Shown: piece after piece, positions 30,007 to 37,740 of the stretch
How positions within the stretch are numbered: position 1 is the stretch's first letter
How the letters are laid out: each line of letters begins with the position of its first letter
DNA from: Sulfuritalea hydrogenivorans sk43H
GTDB taxonomy: Bacteria > Pseudomonadota > Gammaproteobacteria > Burkholderiales > Rhodocyclaceae
NCBI GenBank assembly: GCA_945870205.1
Contig: CAMBRI010000007.1
Location: 1-44,504, forward strand
Direction: 5' to 3'
Length of the DNA stretch: 44,504 bases
Translations under genes and position numbers: made by a program
The notes under the pieces: generated by a model
Told to the model about the DNA's origin: nothing
Database searches by the model: none
Seen by the model: the letters and a program-made list of their open reading frames with translations, nothing else

Positions 30007-30918
30007 ATGAGTCCCCTGCTGGTGTCAGCACTGTGCAAGTCCTACGAGGGCCGCAAGGTGGTGGCCGGGCTCAACTTCGAACTCCAGCGCGGTGAATGCT
30101 ATGGCCTGCTCGGGCCTAACGGCGCCGGCAAGACAAGCACCCTGCGCTGCTGCCTCGGGCTGACAACGCCAGATTCCGGCGAGATAACACTGGTCGGCGA
30201 ACCGGTGCCGGCGCGCGCGCGAGAGGCCCGCATGAAAATCGGCGTGGTGCCGCAGTTCGACAACCTCGACCCGGACTTCACCGCCGCCGAGAACCTCATC
30301 GTCTATGGCCGCTACTTCGGCATGAAGGACAAGGAAATCCGGCCGAAGATTGCCGAACTGCTTGATTTCGCCGGCCTCGCCGGCAAGGAAAATGCCAATA
30401 TCCGCACCCTTTCCGGCGGCATGAAGCGGCGCCTGACGCTGGCGCGCGCACTGGTAAATGATCCGGAACTGCTGTTGCTCGACGAGCCCACCACCGGGTT
30501 GGACCCGCAGGCGCGCCACCTGATCTGGGAGCGCCTCAAGCGCCTCCAGGCGCAAGGCAAGACCATCCTGCTGACGACGCACTTCATGGATGAGGCCGAA
30601 CGGCTGTGCCAGCGCCTGGCGATCATCGATGACGGAAAGATGGTCGCCGAAGGCGCACCGCGGCAACTGATCCACGAGCAGATCGAAGCGCAGGTGGTCG
30701 AAGTCTACGGCGAGGATGCACCGGGCTGGGCCGAGCGCGAAGCCAAAGCCTTTTCGCGACGCGTCGAAGTCAGCGGCGAGACCGCCTTCTGCTATGTCGA
30801 AGACGCCGCGCCCCTGCTCGCCCACCTCGCCGCCTGGCCCGCGCTGCGTACCTTGCACCGGCCGGCGAACCTGGAAGACGTGTTCCTCAAGCTTACCGGC
30901 AGGGAACTGCGCGACTGA
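30007..30918 (+). CDS. ABC transporter ATP-binding protein, NodI/DrrA type
   Basis: 303 residues. Walker A GPNGAGKT (36-43), Q-loop VPQFDNLD, signature LSGGMKRR (135-142), Walker B LLLLDEPT (155-162) and the H-loop [10 protein letters not shown] are intact. The C-terminal extension ends LTGRELRD. It belongs to the ABC-2 export group that includes NodI. Its usual partner, the ABC-2 permease, follows immediately in related genomes (from memory). Here the best match to that partner is at 38838-39623, after a 7.9-kb insertion. Expression of the permease may therefore be uncoupled from this gene. Confidence 0.92.
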
Positions 30919-31137
30919 GCCCACTACAGCGGCTTTGGCGTCGCGCCTGGATGCGGGTCCGTTTGGTGCGTCACAAGAGTCGGCGCTGGCGGCGCGACGA
31001 ACGGGGTCCCACGACGTTGCGGGCCAGAGCGCGCAATCACTGATATTGGCGCCTGGCACCCCGGCGACCAACTCGCGCTGACGCCGGTTGGCAAGAAATT
31101 CTGGTCTGAAACCTTCAACCACGGTATCGCCGTATCA
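30919..31137. other. Gap at the left island junction, no gene seen
   Basis: 219 bases between the ABC ATPase stop and the left repeat copy. Short open frames exist on both strands but have no recognisable features. No second copy of the permease start is visible. Confidence 0.5.
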
Positions 31138-31290
31138 CCAGCGCCGACTTTTCACTTTCGCGTCTACGTCCGCGCCGGGACTCGCCCCGGCGGGCGACCT
31201 ACTTTCTTGCTCGTGCAAGAAAGTAGGCAAAGAAGCACGCCCCGCCTCCCCGGCCCTGCGGGCTCCCCTCGCTGCGGAAGGCCCGGCGGG
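31138..31290 (-). repeat. Left copy of a 153-bp structured inverted repeat
   Basis: The reverse complement matches 37553-37705 base for base except at one position, with no gaps. The copy holds a perfect 13-bp hairpin, CCTACTTTCTTGC (31198-31210) and GCAAGAAAGTAGG (31215-31227), with a 4-base loop, plus further GC-rich hairpins. It looks like a dispersed intergenic element of a type I remember from other betaproteobacteria. Flanking sequences differ, so the shared unit is well bounded. Confidence 0.9.
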
Positions 31291-31819
31291 TCAGAGGGGC
31301 AGTGAAACCACCGCTCGTTACTGGCCCCAGCAAATCCAACTGGAACCCGAATAAAAATTCAGGGGCAGCAGACTGACAACTGCCTGCTGACACCGTCATA
31401 CCCAGAGGCCGCAGCACTCAGTTTGCTGCAGTTCAGCCTTGGCTTGGTCGGATGGCTCTTGGGTGCACATTGCTGCCGGTGGCGAAAATCGAGAGCGGCC
31501 ATTCGCCAGGAACCCCGAGAATGCCGGAGCCGTCATTCGCTATGCGTTAGTGATATTCTTGCCTCGAAGGCTGTTGGGCAGCGGGAACGGTCACTGGCGA
31601 GGCTGAAATGATGTGGCCGTGAGCGGCGGCTTGCTAATTGGACCCGGTGTTCCAACGGGGATCTGTTTTTTCGGGTGGCAGGCGATCCTTGGCCAATTGC
31701 GGCTATTCAATCGGGTGGAGGTTTGATCGGCGATTGGTTTCCTGACCCAGGCAAAACTGGGCACCAGTTGATGCTGAAAACGTGGTTCGGTTCAGACCGC
31801 GAGTTGGAATGCGATCCGG
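31291..31819. other. Long non-coding stretch in the island
   Basis: 529 bases without a supported gene; the open frames are short and lack family features. The sequence looks unlike the neighbouring core genes (lower GC by eye). Confidence 0.5.
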
Positions 31820-32413
31820 TTAATGGGGTTTTATCTTATTCTTTTCGATCAGGCCGCTCACGATGGGTAACATCCCTTTCGCCCACAACTCGCAACCCCT
31901 TTCGGTCATGTGCCCATCCGGCAGGAAATTCCCCGCAACTCTTGGTACGTCCTTGGTCCAGAAGCCGTAGTAGATCGCGCCAAACTTATCAGCAGAGGTG
32001 CGGGCCTGTTCTATCGATTGGATCGAAGTGAAGGACACATAAATCGTCGGGATATGCTTTTCCTGTAGCCAGGCGAGACCCTTTTCCGTGTATTCGACTG
32101 CGGCGGTAACATTCTTATCGTTCGGACCCGGTTCGAAAATGACGATCTGGGTCTTGTCAGTCACGTCTTGATTCTTCATACGCTGAAATATGAAGTGGGG
32201 CTTGTCACCGTTAACCCCTGCATTTTTTACGGTTGCATCGATTCCTTCCGCTTTGAGCAAGGATTCCAGAATTGCGGGGAAGTTTTTGTCGCTCGGTATC
32301 CCTTTGCAGTTCGTGGCACTAGTTCCAATTGCCACGATTTGAATTGGTTCTGCCCGGACCAAGCCGGTAGCCAACAACAGAGGAAATAACAACACCACAA
32401 CTTTATTACGCAT
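31820..32413 (-). CDS. Exported SGNH/GDSL-type hydrolase
   Basis: 197 residues with a signal peptide (MRNKVVVLLFPLLLATGLVRA). The catalytic serine block reads AIGTSATNCKG (Ser32, GTS instead of GDS). The Gly and Asn oxyanion-hole residues are in NAGVNGD (Gly66) and EPGPNDKN (Asn98), and the Asp/His pair is in LPDGHMTERG (Asp166, His168). It resembles the short arylesterase-like SGNH group and probably cleaves an ester in the periplasm. Lower GC by eye and lack of operon partners fit horizontal transfer. Confidence 0.8.
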   Translation of the reverse strand: MRNKVVVLLFPLLLATGLVRAEPIQIVAIGTSATNCKGIPSDKNFPAILESLLKAEGIDATVKNAGVNGDKPHFIFQRMKNQDVTDKTQIVIFEPGPNDKNVTAAVEYTEKGLAWLQEKHIPTIYVSFTSIQSIEQARTSADKFGAIYYGFWTKDVPRVAGNFLPDGHMTERGCELWAKGMLPIVSGLIEKNKIKPH

Positions 32414-32874
32414 AAGCTACTCCAAGAAAAATTGGCGAATTGGCCCGGTTCTTAGAAATCTATAGTTGTGGTCAAAGAGCCAATCAGTACCGGAGCTTTG
32501 ATTCTAACTTGGTTGCACATGCGGCGCTGAACGCGATTTCTGCATTGAAGAGACTTTAACGTTCTGTTACCGAAAGCGTGCGCAGGGCTCCGGGTCAGCA
32601 AGAGCGGGCCGACCAAGCCGAAGCCCGACGGCAGGTATTTGGGTGGACCGACCACCGGCCATGACAATGTCAGCAGCCGGTTCCGGCGCGGGTCAAGGTA
32701 GTTGTCGCCTCGGTCATGCAGCCAACGCCAGAATATGAGAAGCTGCCGTTTGTGGCGCTACACGGGTTACATTACCAGCCTCGCGGCCCGGCTTAGCGAT
32801 TGGCAGTTTCTACGCACATTGCAGCCTCAATAGTCGAGGATATCCTTCCAACCCACACCAAGAAAGTCTCGTGG
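32414..32874. other. Non-coding stretch in the island
   Basis: 461 bases between the SGNH hydrolase gene and the frameshifted gene. The open frames are short and unsupported; I see no repeat, promoter or RNA signature. It would contain the hydrolase promoter, which I cannot identify. Confidence 0.5.
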
Positions 32875-33521
32875 CTACTCGACCTTCGCACTCTTGAGTT
32901 CGTAGGCATTCCCACCAGTGCCACCCTTCGTTCCCCAAACTGTTTCCACCTTCACCGCCACCTTCAGTGACGGAACGTACCAATACTTCTCTGTGTGCTT
33001 GTCACTCCCGTAACAATTGTTCCAATAGCCGGAGTGATCCACGCGCAGGGCGCGATACGTTCCTGCGGGAACCGTCACGGTTTCCCAACCGACAACTTCT
33101 GCCTTGATGTCTATCCTGGACGTACCGCAAGCGGGGTATGGGAAGGTTGTGCTGTATTCCCACTTTTTCCCAACCTCAAGCGGAAAGGAATAGTCTGCTT
33201 TGGCGGCGTATAGGTGCGTTGGGTGTCAGCGATAATTCGACCGCCGTCACGGTCGGTGATGGAAGATCCCGAAGTGCCTGACGAATTCTTCACTTCGTTC
33301 TTGATTTGCGTATCGTCAATCGACGCAGTCGTCACTACGAACACGCTCGTCTGAGCCCTCGAAAAGGGATCGAGCATCGCATACGTCCATGTGTTGCCCA
33401 ACTTCGGCTCGGCTCGCTCAACCTTTGCCGGATCGGCGGATGCCGGTTTCTGCTCCTGTGCAACGGTAGACGCAGAAATTGTCACCAATACAGACAGTGC
33501 AAACAGCGTGGAACGATTCAT
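32875..33521 (-). pseudogene. Frameshifted gene for a small exported protein
   Basis: One gene broken into two frames. The first frame starts at 33521 with a strong AAGGAGG site and a signal peptide (MNRSTLFALSVLVTISASTVAQ), then KLGNTWTYAMLDPFSRAQTS, and goes out of frame after TPPKQTIPF. In the other frame the natural continuation LEVGKKWEYSTTF, then ACGTSRIDIKAEVVGW, TVPAGTYRALRVDHSG and KYWYVPSLKVAVKVE runs to a stop at 32875. One missing base near 33180-33187 would restore the frame. The domain looks like a family of exported proteins with a WEY...VPAGTY...WYVP pattern of unknown function. It could be a sequencing error rather than a real mutation. Confidence 0.8.
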
Positions 33522-33560
33522 GTTGCCTCCTTATGATTATTCTTGCGACGACGTCCCAAA

Positions 33561-33785
33561 TCAGGGACTCAGTTTCACCTTGAGTACAGGATATCCGGGG
33601 ACGCTTTGACGAATCTCCCCTTCATATTCCTCGGAACCATCTTTCTTCGAAATCACCATCGACACATTGTCGGGACAGGGGTTCGAATATTCTTTCGATA
33701 CCGTCATTGTGATCTTGTTCCCGTCTCTTGCCACGGTCCACGGCGCGTCGCGTCGCGCATCGTGCAACGAGAATCGCTTGACCAC
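33561..33785 (-). pseudogene. Remnant of a small protein gene (C-terminal part)
   Basis: The frame encodes 74 residues (RFSLHDARRDAPWTVARDGN, then KDGSEEYEGEIRQSVPGYP) from a GTG with no ribosome site. An in-frame stop lies just upstream and there is no signal peptide, although the next gene on this strand encodes an exported protein. It is most likely the C-terminal end of a truncated gene. An alternative is a short cytoplasmic protein. Not recognised. Confidence 0.4.
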
Positions 33786-34173
33786 AACACCCGTTTTGTT
33801 GAGATGAGTCTAATACAGTTATATGCAATATGGTAAGAATCCCCTATGTTATATGCCTAAAGTCGTAAGTGAATGACAACTATCGAGAGCAGGTTTTGCT
33901 GAACGGCTGCAATATAAATAACTCTCCCGCCGGCTGGTCATGGCCGTGGCCTGCCTGCCACCTGAATCAGACTCTACCCGCGGGAGCGGCCGGTGGACTC
34001 CGTAACCCGCCTGTCAAATCTCATGCTCAAGCCATCGCCAGTGACGGCAACTTGCGTTGCCGACGTGGCCAGAACGTAGCTGGCCCACATTGCTGCTGGC
34101 TGCTTTGCTGCTATCTGGGACTACTTTCTACGCTGGCGAGCGCTGTCGGGTAATGGCGGATTCAAGTCCGAAA

Positions 34174-34217
34174 CTGAAAATCCGTGTGTCGGCAGTTCGA
34201 TTCTGCACCTGACAACA
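34174..34217 (+). pseudogene. Degenerate 3' half of a tRNA (tRNA-Phe-like)
   Basis: From CTGAAAATCCG, the anticodon loop and 3' stem of tRNA-Phe (anticodon GAA), through GTGTCGG to a T-arm with GGCAG, TTCGATT and CTGCA (34191-34207), ending CTGACAACA instead of a proper acceptor end plus CCA. The 5' half is missing: the upstream sequence does not pair with it. A terminator follows immediately, as after real tRNA genes. Integrases often recombine at tRNA 3' halves starting at the anticodon loop, so this may be a decayed attachment site. Confidence 0.5.
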
Positions 34218-34224
34218 GTATCTA

Positions 34225-34256
34225 AGCGGCTCCCGGCGATGGGGGCCGCTTTTCTT
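34225..34256 (+). terminator. Rho-independent terminator
   Basis: AGCGGCTCCC (34225-34234) pairs with GGGGGCCGCT (34241-34250) over a 6-base loop, with one G-T wobble, and is followed by TTTCTTT. It lies 7 bases after the tRNA-like fragment. Confidence 0.85.
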
Positions 34257-34378
34257 TGTGGGTCGGGGTTGGCCCGGGGTTACGGTTTCCGTGCCAGTTG
34301 AGCCATGATCATCACGGTCAAGCAACGTTTCTAGCCACCATGACCAGCGCGCTTACTGCCAAGGAACCAGCAGAAGAA

Positions 34379-35824
34379 CTACAGCTCTCTCAATAGAGAT
34401 GGTTCAAGAAAGTCGGTCAGTTTGATCGGACGATACCCAAGGTCGCGGGATTTCTTTTCAAAGTTTGCCGCGTCAACAGTCTGCCCGGCCTGCCTATAGA
34501 TCTCAGATAGCTCCCAGCTTGCAATTCCACTCCCAAACTCTGCCGAAAATCGCAGCCACTGCTCAGCGCGTCTAGCATTTGCTGCCACACCTGATTTGCC
34601 CATCTTGTAAGCAATCGATAGGCGGCGCGCGGCGTCCTTGTCTCCCCGCAGAGCCTTGGTCAGATCATCGCGAAAGTCTCGGTCCCCAGTTGCGTCTTCG
34701 AAAAGATCTCCTGAAAATCCAGCCGAGCGCTGACTTTCGAGCACTTGGCGCGCGCCGTCAATCGTTACGCGAATCTGTTGCTGATACACGCTGCCAGGAA
34801 AATCCTTTTCAAACTGCTCGCAGAGTCGAATCAAACGAGTAGGCCTGAGCGTATCCAGAATAGCCTGCCAACGTTTTTCTAGTAGCAAGAGGTCGGCACC
34901 AACCCAATGCGATCCCTTGCCCGGACGGCCACGATTCAACTCAAGCTGGCGATTGCGGATCACGAAGCGCCCCCGCAGATTACCGGTACTCTCAGGAAAC
35001 TGCGCCGGGATGGTCAACTTCACCTTGTCGAACTCTGCCTTGACCCGCGTCTGGCATTCGATCGCTGCGATGCGGAAAAGGTCGTCGATCGGCGTCACGC
35101 CGTTGGCCTCGCGCAGCACGTCTATCAGGGCACCAGCGAAAAAGGTATTGCGGTCCGGGCTGATCGGCGCCAGGGCCGGGCGTCCAGCACGCGTAGCAAA
35201 GAACAACAGCATCCCCTCCGGCGCGACAATCTGATTGAATTCGTCGACGCCGCGGCGGATCGACGGATCGGTGCGACAAGCATCAATCAGCGCAATGCTG
35301 ACCCCTGGGTAGCGTTGGGGCAATGCCATCAGGACGTCTTCGTTAAGGCGCAGGGAGGAAGCAATCGCTTTTTCCGAAGACGGGTCCACACCGGCGGGCA
35401 CCAGATAGTTGCGTCCGGCCGACTGGAAACCATGTCCGCAGAAATAGAACACCACGGCAACCGAACCCGGCAGGACGGACTCGCGTGCACTCCTCAGTTC
35501 GGCCCCGAACTCGGCCAGCACCCGGGCCATCGACATGGCATCCAGGTCAACATAGTCACGCACCTTGAACTCGTAGTATTCGAGAATATCCTTGAGATCC
35601 CTGACGTTCTTGTGTGCCGGCGCAATGTCCTTGCGGTCGGGATAGTCGCGGTTGCCGATGAGCAGGGCAAACTTTCTGCGCGGCACGTAAATATCCTGGA
35701 TCGGCTCGGCCGACTGCACCTGCGCAAAGCAATTCGACGCCTGGGAAAGCGTACCTAGGGCAAGTGTGGCGGCGCCTGCGATGACGAGACTGCGACGCGA
35801 CTCGCAAAAAGGTGGCTCATACAT
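34379..35824 (-). CDS. Exported caspase-like (C14) protein with Sel1-like C-terminus
   Basis: 481 residues. The N-terminus ESRRSLVIAGAATLALG carries a twin-arginine (Tat-like) or Sec signal. The caspase-like domain follows (about 50-260), with catalytic His131 (YFCGHGFQSAG) and Cys183 (ALIDACRTDP), so the dyad is intact. The C-terminal 170 residues are helical, and residues about 390-460 resemble Sel1/TPR repeats (ARRLSIAYKMGKSG, AEQWLRFSAEFGSG, ASWELSEIYRQAG). Bacterial caspase homologues cleave after Arg/Lys or Asp and act in stress or defence, but exported ones are poorly known. It stands alone within the island. Confidence 0.87.
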   Translation of the reverse strand: MYEPPFCESRRSLVIAGAATLALGTLSQASNCFAQVQSAEPIQDIYVPRRKFALLIGNRDYPDRKDIAPAHKNVRDLKDILEYYEFKVRDYVDLDAMSMARVLAEFGAELRSARESVLPGSVAVVFYFCGHGFQSAGRNYLVPAGVDPSSEKAIASSLRLNEDVLMALPQRYPGVSIALIDACRTDPSIRRGVDEFNQIVAPEGMLLFFATRAGRPALAPISPDRNTFFAGALIDVLREANGVTPIDDLFRIAAIECQTRVKAEFDKVKLTIPAQFPESTGNLRGRFVIRNRQLELNRGRPGKGSHWVGADLLLLEKRWQAILDTLRPTRLIRLCEQFEKDFPGSVYQQQIRVTIDGARQVLESQRSAGFSGDLFEDATGDRDFRDDLTKALRGDKDAARRLSIAYKMGKSGVAANARRAEQWLRFSAEFGSGIASWELSEIYRQAGQTVDAANFEKKSRDLGYRPIKLTDFLEPSLLREL

Positions 35825-36130
35825 AGCTTGATTTGCCCTTAGACATTTGTTGCATCCAGTGTGTATTGAGCGATCGCTCCGCCCCGGAACACTGGGCTAG
35901 CGCGACCCCGCATAGCGCAGCCCTGCTGAGGCGCTTCCCGAGAATTTGTGGTCAGGTACAGACCAATTCTTTTTTCCCGGCTTTATTGGGTGGCTGCGGC
36001 AGACGCATCGTAAGCGCCTGCAACAGACGGCCTTGCAAGCCTGGAAGAAGACGGAACTTCATGGAAGCCGAATGGTATGCCGGGAATGGCACCGAAGCAA
36101 GAATGGTTATTCGCAACATAAGGGGGCGGT
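35825..36130. other. Gap between the caspase-like gene and IS30 element
   Basis: 306 bases. Open frames of 69-101 residues overlap here but lack recognisable domains; one frame (35946-36155) has a faint basic WLRQTHRKRLQ pattern that I do not trust. It presumably includes the promoter of the caspase-like gene. Confidence 0.45.
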
Positions 36131-37221
36131 TTCAATGACCAAGTGCAAAAAGTGAAGCGTGATGATGTCTGCAGTCAAAAGCGTCTGCAGAAAACAATTC
36201 GGCGGGGCATTTGAAGCCGAGGGATTTTCGCGGACGGGTATTCAACTGCCAGGCGACGGCATCGAGTTCCTCTTGAGTGAAGCCACCCAAGTCAGTTCCC
36301 TTGGGGAAATGCTGTCTGAGCAGGCCGTTGGTATTTTCGTTGATGCCGCGCTGCCATGGACTGTGCGGATCGGCGAAGTAAACTTTCACGCCGGTGGTCT
36401 GGGTCAAACGCTGGTGCTCAGTCATCTCCTTGCCCTGATCGTACGTCAGCGAAAGGCGCTTCTGCGATTCGATGCGGTTGAGGACATGGCTGAAGCCACT
36501 GACCGCAGCCTCGGCACCCGCATCCTCCATTCGGGACAGAACAGTGAACAGTGTCGTGCGTTCGACCAGCGTGCCTATCGCCGAACGGTTGAACGCCCCT
36601 TTGATAGGGTCGCCCTCCCAGTGGCCCGGCACCAACCGTTCGTCCACTTCAGGTGGGCGGTCAGGAATGCGCACACGCCGATCTTCACCACGCGCTCGGG
36701 GGCGGCGTTTGGCATGCCCAAAGCGCAACCAGCCAATGTCCTCCGTGCGCAGCTCTCCACGTGGCATCGCGTAAATGGCGGTGTAGATGGTCTCGTGAGA
36801 AACCTGCAGGGACGGCGTATCGGGATGCACAAGCGCCAGTGTGCCAGCTATCTGCTCCGGCGAGTATCTGGCCTTGAGGTAGTGGCAGACCTGCTCCCAC
36901 AACGGTGTGCCCGGCCTCAGCCGACGCGCAACGCGCGGCTTCGTTGTGCTGACATGGGCGCGTCGATGCGCCGCATCGGAACGATAACCGCCCGCCATCA
37001 GCGGACGCCCGCGCCCACACCGATCCTTCGGCCGAACCGATCCGTTCCGACTCAACTCACGCGAAAGTGTCGAAGCAGAACGACCAAGCTCAACAGCAAT
37101 AGCCCCAGGCTTGATCCCCATCTCCAGCTTCGTTTGAATCATCGTCCGCTCTTCAATGCCCAACTGCTTGTAGTTTCCCATGCAACATTCTCTCCCGATA
37201 ATGTTGCACTTGGATTTTGAG
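36131..37221 (-). mobile_element. IS30-family insertion sequence
   Basis: About 1.09 kb, bounded by imperfect 18-base inverted repeats: TTCAATGACCAAGTGCAA at 36131-36148 and, on the other strand, CTCAAAATCCAAGTGCAA at 37204-37221 (14 of 18 match, CCAAGTGCAA identical). It has a single transposase gene. The exact ends and target duplication cannot be fixed without a second copy. It lies inside the island next to the right 153-bp repeat copy. Confidence 0.85.
36132..37181 (-). CDS. IS30-family transposase
   Basis: 349 residues. The N-terminal helix-turn-helix reads LGIEERTMIQTKLEMGIKPG, then AVELGRSASTLSRELSRNG, the IS30 signature. The catalytic triad is Asp191 (HWEGDPIKG), Asp248 (LTYDQGKEMTEH) and Glu282 (WQRGINENTNGLLRQ), with exactly 33 residues between the last two, the DD(33)E pattern of IS30. 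The conserved RPRKSLGFKCPAEL end is present, so the enzyme is complete and probably active. The stop codon lies in the inverted repeat. Confidence 0.95.
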   Translation of the reverse strand: MGNYKQLGIEERTMIQTKLEMGIKPGAIAVELGRSASTLSRELSRNGSVRPKDRCGRGRPLMAGGYRSDAAHRRAHVSTTKPRVARRLRPGTPLWEQVCHYLKARYSPEQIAGTLALVHPDTPSLQVSHETIYTAIYAMPRGELRTEDIGWLRFGHAKRRPRARGEDRRVRIPDRPPEVDERLVPGHWEGDPIKGAFNRSAIGTLVERTTLFTVLSRMEDAGAEAAVSGFSHVLNRIESQKRLSLTYDQGKEMTEHQRLTQTTGVKVYFADPHSPWQRGINENTNGLLRQHFPKGTDLGGFTQEELDAVAWQLNTRPRKSLGFKCPAELFSADAFDCRHHHASLFALGH

Positions 37222-37552
37222 CGCGCCGGGCTATTCGCCGAAAGCCTGTTCGGAGATTCGGCATCGCGCTGCAGTTACGCCTGCGTCATGTCTGCTTTGT
37301 GGTGGGAACCGACCTACAAATCGCATTCCCACGGCATCGCCAGTGACGGCATAACGCTGCGTTGCAGTCAGTCATGTATTCAACGTGGAATCAATTGAAA
37401 GCCACTCTGGCTATCCTCGCCATGACCCACCGTGCGCGTTGGTTTGTTCTTCCTTCCCCTCTGACCCGCCGAGCGAGGAAGGTTCGTCGGGGGAAGTCCG
37501 GTCGCGTTGTCCGACGCCGGCCGTTTTTTTGGCCGGCTAGTTTAGCGACCGG
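37222..37552. other. Gap with a structured module next to the right repeat
   Basis: 331 bases without a gene. From 37456 to 37552 it holds sequence that belongs to the repeat family: CCCCTCTGACCCGCC also precedes the left copy, read on the other strand. Between the two is an 88-bp segment missing from the left copy. That segment has nested stems CCGGTCGC (37498-37505) / GCGACCGG (37545-37552) and GCCGGCC (37516-37522) / GGCCGGC (37531-37537) around a T-rich loop. Confidence 0.7.
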
Positions 37553-37705
37553 CCCGGCGGGCCTTCCGCAGCGAGGGGAGCCCGCAGGGCCGGGGAGGCG
37601 GGGCGTGCTTCTTTGCCTACTTTCTTGCACGAGCAAGAAAGTAGGTCGCCCGCCGGGGCGAGTCCCGGCGCGGACGTAGACGCGAAAGTGAAAAGTCGGC
37701 GCTGG
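37553..37705 (+). repeat. Right copy of the 153-bp structured inverted repeat
   Basis: Reverse complement of 31138-31290 with one mismatch. Hairpins include CCTACTTTCTTGC (37616-37628) / GCAAGAAAGTAGG (37633-37645) and CGCCGGG (37651-37657) / CCCGGCG (37664-37670). The one mismatch and the missing 88 bp in the left copy are explained together by deletion between CCCGCCG (37465-37471) and CCCGGCG (37553-37559). Confidence 0.9.
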
Positions 37706-37740
37706 CAGGGCGGCGATGCAGTGGGCGAGTGTCAAGCGTC

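Follow-up and report, generated by a model that had tools for sequence, protein, structure and literature searches.

Structured inverted repeats at positions 31138-31290 and 37553-37705 of a 44,504-nt stretch of Sulfuritalea hydrogenivorans sk43H (hereafter the window) are, on comparison across genomes, matched ends of gene-carrying cassettes, a family found in Sulfuritalea and related bacteria, and their bracketing of the genes between them is judged real. The comparison shows the unit to run from a palindrome (PAL) and a structured arm through one accessory gene or a few to an inverted arm and a second PAL, with spacers and copies of a further motif (SP) outside. For two sites, other species carry the same flanks around a single PAL, with neither arms nor cargo. 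The reading favored here, that the repeats terminate a non-autonomous mobile gene cassette, a unit exchanged at PAL via a trans-acting enzyme, is offered tentatively, as a serious possibility that falls a little short of probable. Recognition of the folded arm, probably in the form of a single-strand or cruciform hairpin, would fall to an enzyme supplied in trans, and PAL would be the point at which the unit is inserted, lost, or replaced; replication slippage between the two PALs may be a further route of loss.

The window is one contig of a 4.44-Mb, 391-contig assembly (G000), and the comparison set comprised 31 genomes of the genus (G000-G030) and 30 other relatives. Searches with the 153-bp repeat (E up to 0.001) matched 26 of the 31 genus genomes and four of the 30 other relatives; in G012 and G021 the listed matches span only the arm tip or the outer part, so arms proper occur in fewer than 26 genomes. 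An arm profile was built from 57 arms and run over the window, locus L031, and loci L078-L219. Because loci L078-L117 had been chosen from matches to the 153-bp query, many for visible pairing, pairing was counted elsewhere, in 102 stretches fetched with a pattern requiring one arm only. Some arm match, counting those at or below 40 bits, is present in 95 of these loci. There, 34 of 36 adjacent arm pairs are convergent, and both exceptions lie in one locus with four arms. All three elements found in G002, whose assembly is one contig rated 100% complete, are pairs, and PAL, the palindrome of the arm tip, is present 0 to 8 times per genome.

A preliminary description of the window had considered that two dispersed repeats might flank the cargo by chance. 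Directional pairing and low arm copy number, including the all-paired elements of G002, rule out chance flanking and dispersed repetitive extragenic palindromic (REP)-like repeats; the copy count on which that description hung the matter gave matches in 26 genus genomes, with arms few and adjacent arms mostly facing each other. Its alternative suggestion, mobilization ends, is favored by the genome comparison, with neither a mobilizing enzyme nor a moving copy seen. Facing pairs total 67, of which 45 have non-redundant cargo of 0.6-6 kb, these elements being convergent pairs by construction, with arms of at least 40 bits lying more than 200 nt apart. Arms are about 215-260 nt long, most cargo is covered by one to four open reading frames (ORFs) at 48-57% G+C (32 loci), and only six cargo pairs among the 45 are alike over more than 100 nt.

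Direct comparison of 31138-31290 with the reverse complement of 37553-37705 gives 152 of 153 identical positions, one mismatch, and no gaps, exactly as first described. The sharp stop then reported at both ends does not hold in that form: on the outer side the likeness fades over 19 nt, the ungapped inverted repeat being 172 nt at 95% (31119-31290 / 37553-37724), and the inner edge at 31290 exists because the left arm has lost its inner part, the edge marking the end of that deletion. As aligned with the rest of the family, both 153-bp copies are outer portions of longer arms of about 260 nt. The right arm continues inward to about 37412 and is complete; the left arm jumps from CCCGGCGGG to TCAGAGGGG, its inner part lost except for the inner tail. 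Both arms start with PAL, beyond which lie a 21-nt spacer and the 26-nt SP motif, and the outermost 36 nt of the reported repeat are spacer plus part of SP, outside the arm proper. The 13-bp stem was recovered as a hairpin in both copies, the Pfam domains of a caspase-like protein and an IS30 transposase were found inside the 6.2-kb cargo as claimed, and the structured character of the 153-bp unit was upheld by folding, in which both strands beat shuffles (z -2.44 for the plus strand, z -3.25 for the minus strand). The features of the window are as follows.

30007..30918, + strand: left flanking gene, read as an ABC transporter ATPase (own sequence reading); the cassette site lies behind this gene
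30975..31000, - strand: SP motif, inverse copy, outside the left end (repeat search)
31127..31152, + strand: SP motif (TCGCCGTATCACCAGCGCCGACTTTT) outside the left arm (repeat search)
31153..31173, + strand: outer spacer, left end (repeat comparison)
31174..31191, + strand: PAL at the left arm tip, palindrome GCCGGG-ACTCGC-CCCGGC
31174..31345, + strand: left arm, inner part deleted (arm profile, 134 bits)
31198..31227, + strand: 13-bp hairpin of the left arm, its helix covarying across the family (folding, covariation)
31820..32413, - strand: cargo ORF, 197 aa, no Pfam match
33111..33521, - strand: cargo ORF, 136 aa, no Pfam match
34015..34049, + strand: right inner cargo edge 37317-37351 duplicated at 86%, a possible two-cassette seam (repeat search)
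34379..35824, - strand: cargo gene with caspase domain (Peptidase_C14, PF00656), 481 aa (Pfam, E 1.1e-20)
36132..37181, - strand: IS30-type transposase gene inside the cargo (Pfam HTH_38 and rve)
37412..37669, - strand: right arm, complete (arm profile, 250 bits)
37616..37645, - strand: 13-bp hairpin of the right arm (folding, covariation)
37652..37669, - strand: PAL at the right arm tip (palindrome)
37670..37690, - strand: outer spacer, right end (repeat comparison)
37691..37716, - strand: SP motif outside the right arm (repeat search)

The same site is differently occupied from species to species, holding different cassettes, a cargo-free mini element with a single 18-nt PAL, or nothing. The clearest case lies behind ffh, a site located in 30 of the 31 genus genomes and read by eye. 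Eleven of the 45 non-redundant cassettes stand there (ten from Sulfuritalea, one from a Sterolibacterium record), with no cargo similarity listed among them. Arms are present in 12 of the 30 genomes (G003, G004, G005, G007, G011, G013, G014, G018, G023, G024, G025, and G029), the arm being broken near a contig end in G003 and G005. Five have minis reading SP, spacer, one PAL, spacer, SP (G001, G012, G015, G021, and G028), with an imperfect PAL in G012 and G021 and the left SP absent in G028. An SP pair without PAL is found in G020, SP with PAL and an arm stub in G016, solo SP in G008, G010, G019, and G022, and a diverged SP in G027; the site is bare in six (G000, G002, G006, G009, G017, and G030). 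A genome-wide PAL survey examined 41 loci and added 11 that have a single PAL flanked by SP on either side; one of the 11 (L354) is an arm cut by an insertion. Together with the five ffh minis this gives 16 single-PAL loci. For six of them a full cassette exists with both flanks matching: L079 corresponds to L086, next to a gene read as dnaE, and all five ffh minis correspond to L097 and L101. The placing of the outer border at PAL rests chiefly on these single-PAL empty sites.

At the window's own site, arms behind the left flanking gene were found only in G000 and G024 among the 29 genus genomes inspected, in some of which the stretch was short or the gene end was misjudged or cut. The G024 cargo has TPR and CHAT domains and matches the window at both inner cargo edges, arms included (31281-31370 and 37317-37724); the middle of the cargo is unrelated except for 56 nt. 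This 56-nt match and the duplicated edge at 34015-34049/37317-37351 suggest that two cassettes were fused in the window, and the unit looks old and damaged, to judge from its truncated left arm, internal IS30, and duplicated inner edge. A second arm pair in the window's genome, on contig C340, encloses 1.1 kb of cargo, and an insertion interrupts the hairpin loop of its left arm. Insertions ending GTGTATAGACCGGACACATAGGTAAC or close to it lie in the arm hairpin loop in three genomes (G000, G004, and G005), at positions 29-1310 of L031, the end of L340, about 455-490 of L354, and the G005 ffh site.

Arms from the ffh site are about as similar between genomes on the same side (0.841) as on opposite sides (0.840), and arms from unrelated places score 0.836; the left and right arms of one cassette score 0.886, arms within one genome 0.865, and the nearest neighbor is the arm's own partner for 25 of 88 arms. 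Since a shared site does not make arms more similar, arms turn over together with their cargo. The 75 nt outside PAL, a stretch that often extends beyond SP into the flank where spacers are short, carry a strong site signal, reached in 0 of 1000 label shuffles, against 98, 50, and 250 of 1000 for parts of the arm. A rival explanation is an exchange resembling that of the Neisseria minimal mobile elements, in which gene cassettes would be swapped by homologous recombination after DNA uptake and the arms and outer repeats would be mere homology. Species do differ in the genes between the same conserved neighbors, as in the definition of those elements given in the available part of PMC3898611. 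Exchange through flanking genes should, however, keep arms site-specific, which they are not, and it needs no structured ends, yet the arms covary and are paired in other families too; this explanation is considered quite unlikely.

RNAalifold applied to 73 arms gave 45 pairs, eight of them with two-sided changes, and the arm fold covaries. The structure was derived from the same alignment on which it was tested, so the test favors it: paired cells amount to 98.0%, compared with 94.3% when columns are shuffled and 40-55% when partners are slid, and cells with two-sided changes number 124, compared with 44.3 and 3-35, respectively. Further pair types show no excess (24 vs 25.4 in shuffles). The clearest covarying columns are 25-56 (G-C 40, C-G 32), 26-55 (four Watson-Crick types), 136-206, and 143-193. 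Departures to G-U and to A-C, counted by eye, are about equal, so neither strand stands out as RNA. Rfam 15 gave no matches in the window and, around the right arm, two matches, both below gathering scores; a known RNA family is excluded at that threshold.

Sequence related to the arms extends beyond the genus, to at least 71 of 399 genomes of the order (E up to 1e-5, two candidates scored per genome), many matches being partial. Twenty order-level stretches were hand-picked, the first five as visible or likely pairs; ten of them have facing arm matches 68-336 nt apart, and two (L414 and L425) enclose longer ORFs. At other order-level loci facing pairs recur alongside some single or irregular arms, plasmids of Comamonas odontotermitis and Variovorax paradoxus carry facing pairs, and arm pairs outside the genus often have short non-coding centers. 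Twenty-two arms from several families share, with single-row exceptions, the layout PAL, hairpin, CAAAGAA, AACTCG-hairpin-CAGACA, CTCGGCG, AGGGG.

The elaborate conserved fold, the retention of AACTCG, GACA, and AAAGAA across families, and the arm pairs that lack long ORFs in other families would all suit a functional RNA or a transcription-boundary element such as a terminator or insulator, with cargo gathering between the arms in a safe place. A transcribed strand would be expected to show a G-U excess over A-C, and none is clear by eye; moreover, there is no Rfam family, and the turnover of cargo at sites would be left unexplained, making this a very unlikely account. A phage origin was rejected as well: phage records gave no match at a distant-match setting, the exact core pattern matched two viral contigs, of which one has a single arm, and the hairpin pattern matched none. 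The single arm on a viral-collection contig lies at L441 3468-3624 (IMG/VR 3300033413_000091), where prophage or host carry-over is possible.

Cargo proteins were scanned with Pfam as a set of 60, made up of proteins from 59 of 70 cargo ORFs plus that of the window's IS30 gene. None except the window's IS30 has a transposase or recombinase domain; about 24 of the 60 are without any match, so an unrecognized enzyme could hide among them. Nuclease-like or defense-like domains include Mrr_cat (two), Mrr_N (two), HNH (two), HARE-HTH, PLD/NgoFVII, T5orf172, CHAT, caspase, RES, and AAA_21 with DUF4435. PADLOC was run on 57 proteins together and then on 20 individually, with no random-gene control for the matches; at E up to 1e-8, seven of the 20 match, from six cassettes, and 13 do not. 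The matches are an AriAB (PARIS) protein (4.7e-138), HEC-08, PDC-S14, PDC-M41A, M30B/M41B, a protein resembling type IV restriction enzymes, and a TIR effector that matches weakly; for the caspase-like protein of the window no PADLOC match at 1e-5 appears among the 25 of 79 matching families listed. Among the 25 of 57 matching NCBIfam families listed, guided_IscB is matched by two cargo proteins (best 1.8e-11), perhaps via HNH domains, a SepA-like family by two proteins, and 'radical SAM mobile pair protein A' by one. Other cargo is not defense-like (an outer-membrane protein, GGDEF, and a cyclase), so defense is frequent in these cassettes, not universal.

The same scan bears on the possibility that the inverted arms flip the cargo and thereby switch expression. 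Long inverted repeats would permit flipping, and the 152/153 identity of the window's arms is what gene conversion or inversion would leave, but no invertase domain was found in the Pfam-scanned cargo and arm pairs average only 89% alike; an invertible segment is extremely improbable.

Two enzymes of the genus were considered as movers and rejected, which weighs against exchange at PAL by an enzyme supplied in trans, as do the other observations gathered here; that several genus genomes are incomplete bears on each co-occurrence of enzyme and arms. Y1 (RAYT-like) transposases occur in 26 of the 31 genus genomes, including G006, G008, and G030, where the 153-bp query found no arm, so their presence does not track the arms. 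PAL was found beside none of the Y1 genes in 12 loci examined, with the SP motif in 11 of the 12, and SP density is 0.48 per kb around 30 Y1 loci compared with 0.27, 0.28, and 0.32 per kb around three other genes, a small excess. Integron integrase genes above the TIGR02249 cut-off are present in 23 of the 31 genomes (in the window's own at G000:C124:154-1095), among them the armless G008 and G019, and not above the cut-off in the arm-bearing G001, G015, G020, and G029; none of eight integron-integrase loci fetched has arms, and the distribution does not follow them. Neither a recombinase nor an excised form was seen, nor any copy that had moved within one strain. Among the loci fetched with the one-arm pattern, 48 show a lone arm, and in 40 of these under 3 kb of sequence remains on the cargo side. 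Ten of the 16 single-PAL loci have a one-sided flank match or none to a full cassette, and at the window's site G004 joins the left gene via one SP to the same right flank without PAL, an arrangement that is best read as the empty form of this site. The loops of the two PALs of one cassette are mutually inverted, which integration at one site does not predict.

The spacers add to these difficulties. Restricting the comparison to 20 or 35 nt outside PAL weakens the site signal (5 and 39 of 1000 shuffles, respectively), and spacer likeness over 20 and 35 nt is highest with the other end of the same element (0.379 and 0.436), compared with 0.248 and 0.280 at the same site and 0.167 and 0.216 for unrelated ends. 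Both results make the PAL border less certain and a classical non-autonomous transposon running from SP to SP, with its transposase in trans, likelier than first judged. Under this explanation the minis would be nearly precise excision scars arising by slippage between the PALs, as has been described for Tn10. It accounts for the inversion of SP, spacer, PAL, and arm at both sides and for the existence of minis running from SP to SP. However, spacers partly follow the site, which arms hardly do, no Pfam transposase was found in the scanned cargo bar the window's IS30, and SP is present in hundreds of copies, single ones included: 139 near-copies (at most two mismatches) in the window's own genome, compared with three for a reversed-pattern control, and 45-614 copies in each of the 31 genus genomes. 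No target-site duplication was seen by eye at the ffh site, which counts against the transposon and against exchange at PAL alike. The transposon from SP to SP is regarded as rather unlikely, if a strong competitor.

The motif and the spacer were also met in other settings. SP (CGCCAGCGCCGACTTTT) sometimes lies apparently in frame within proteins, for example in L018, L021, L022, and L023 (contigs C300 and C132 of the window's genome), and these copies seem to stand at what look like interdomain linkers, reading AVPPAPTF. The spacer between SP and PAL in several arms (for example, L106 and L101) is a CGTC-tagged REP-like sequence, CGTCATTCCNGCGAA..., the name of the tag being taken from the available part of PMC3733652.

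If cassette exchange at PAL is correct, it would provide a cassette system parallel to integrons and would explain the swapping of single accessory genes at fixed places in these genomes, among them defense-like genes for AriAB/PARIS-like, type IV restriction-like, caspase, and CHAT proteins. The arms would then be ready boundaries for mining unknown defense genes, and there would be reason to seek a new recombinase. A wider proposal, judged unlikely at present, is that paired inverted arms recognized by their fold constitute a separate bacterial class of gene capture, framing single accessory or defense genes that an undescribed recombinase inserts or replaces at a palindrome in resident repeats, with cargo-free relatives across Burkholderiales.

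Literature searches, including searches for four strings of the element's sequence, turned up no description of this element among the papers listed, and its nearest counterparts are known systems that share some of its features. Mobile insertion cassettes hold cargo between insertion sequence ends without a transposase. They and miniature inverted-repeat transposable elements resemble the present cassettes in their inverted ends, lack of a transposase, and presumed movement in trans; the ends here differ in being about 260 nt long with a multi-helix covarying fold, and no target-site duplication was seen by eye at the ffh site. REPINs are not known to carry genes. Like the arms described here, REPINs (as presented in the accessible portion of PMC3116915) are inverted pairs of a repeat unit in repeat-rich surroundings, and Y1 transposases are present in the genus; in contrast to such short inverted REP pairs, the arms are far longer, at about 215-260 nt, genes are enclosed, and no PAL lies at the 12 Y1 loci.

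In the minimal mobile elements of Neisseria, whole-gene cassettes that differ from one another occupy the space between the same conserved genes; homologous recombination is described as their only means of incorporation, and no structured ends are mentioned in the part of the source available (PMC3898611). The cassettes described here likewise present alternative genes between the same conserved genes, but they have structured arms, and the lack of site specificity in those arms speaks against incorporation only by homologous recombination in the flanks. Integron cassettes are like these cassettes in carrying single accessory genes, turning over at fixed places, and having a fold-recognized end. 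No attC core was recognized in the arm by reading, no attC search having been run. Whereas integron cassettes have one attC each and stand in tandem arrays beside an integrase, each unit here has two inverted arms and the units occupy separate sites.

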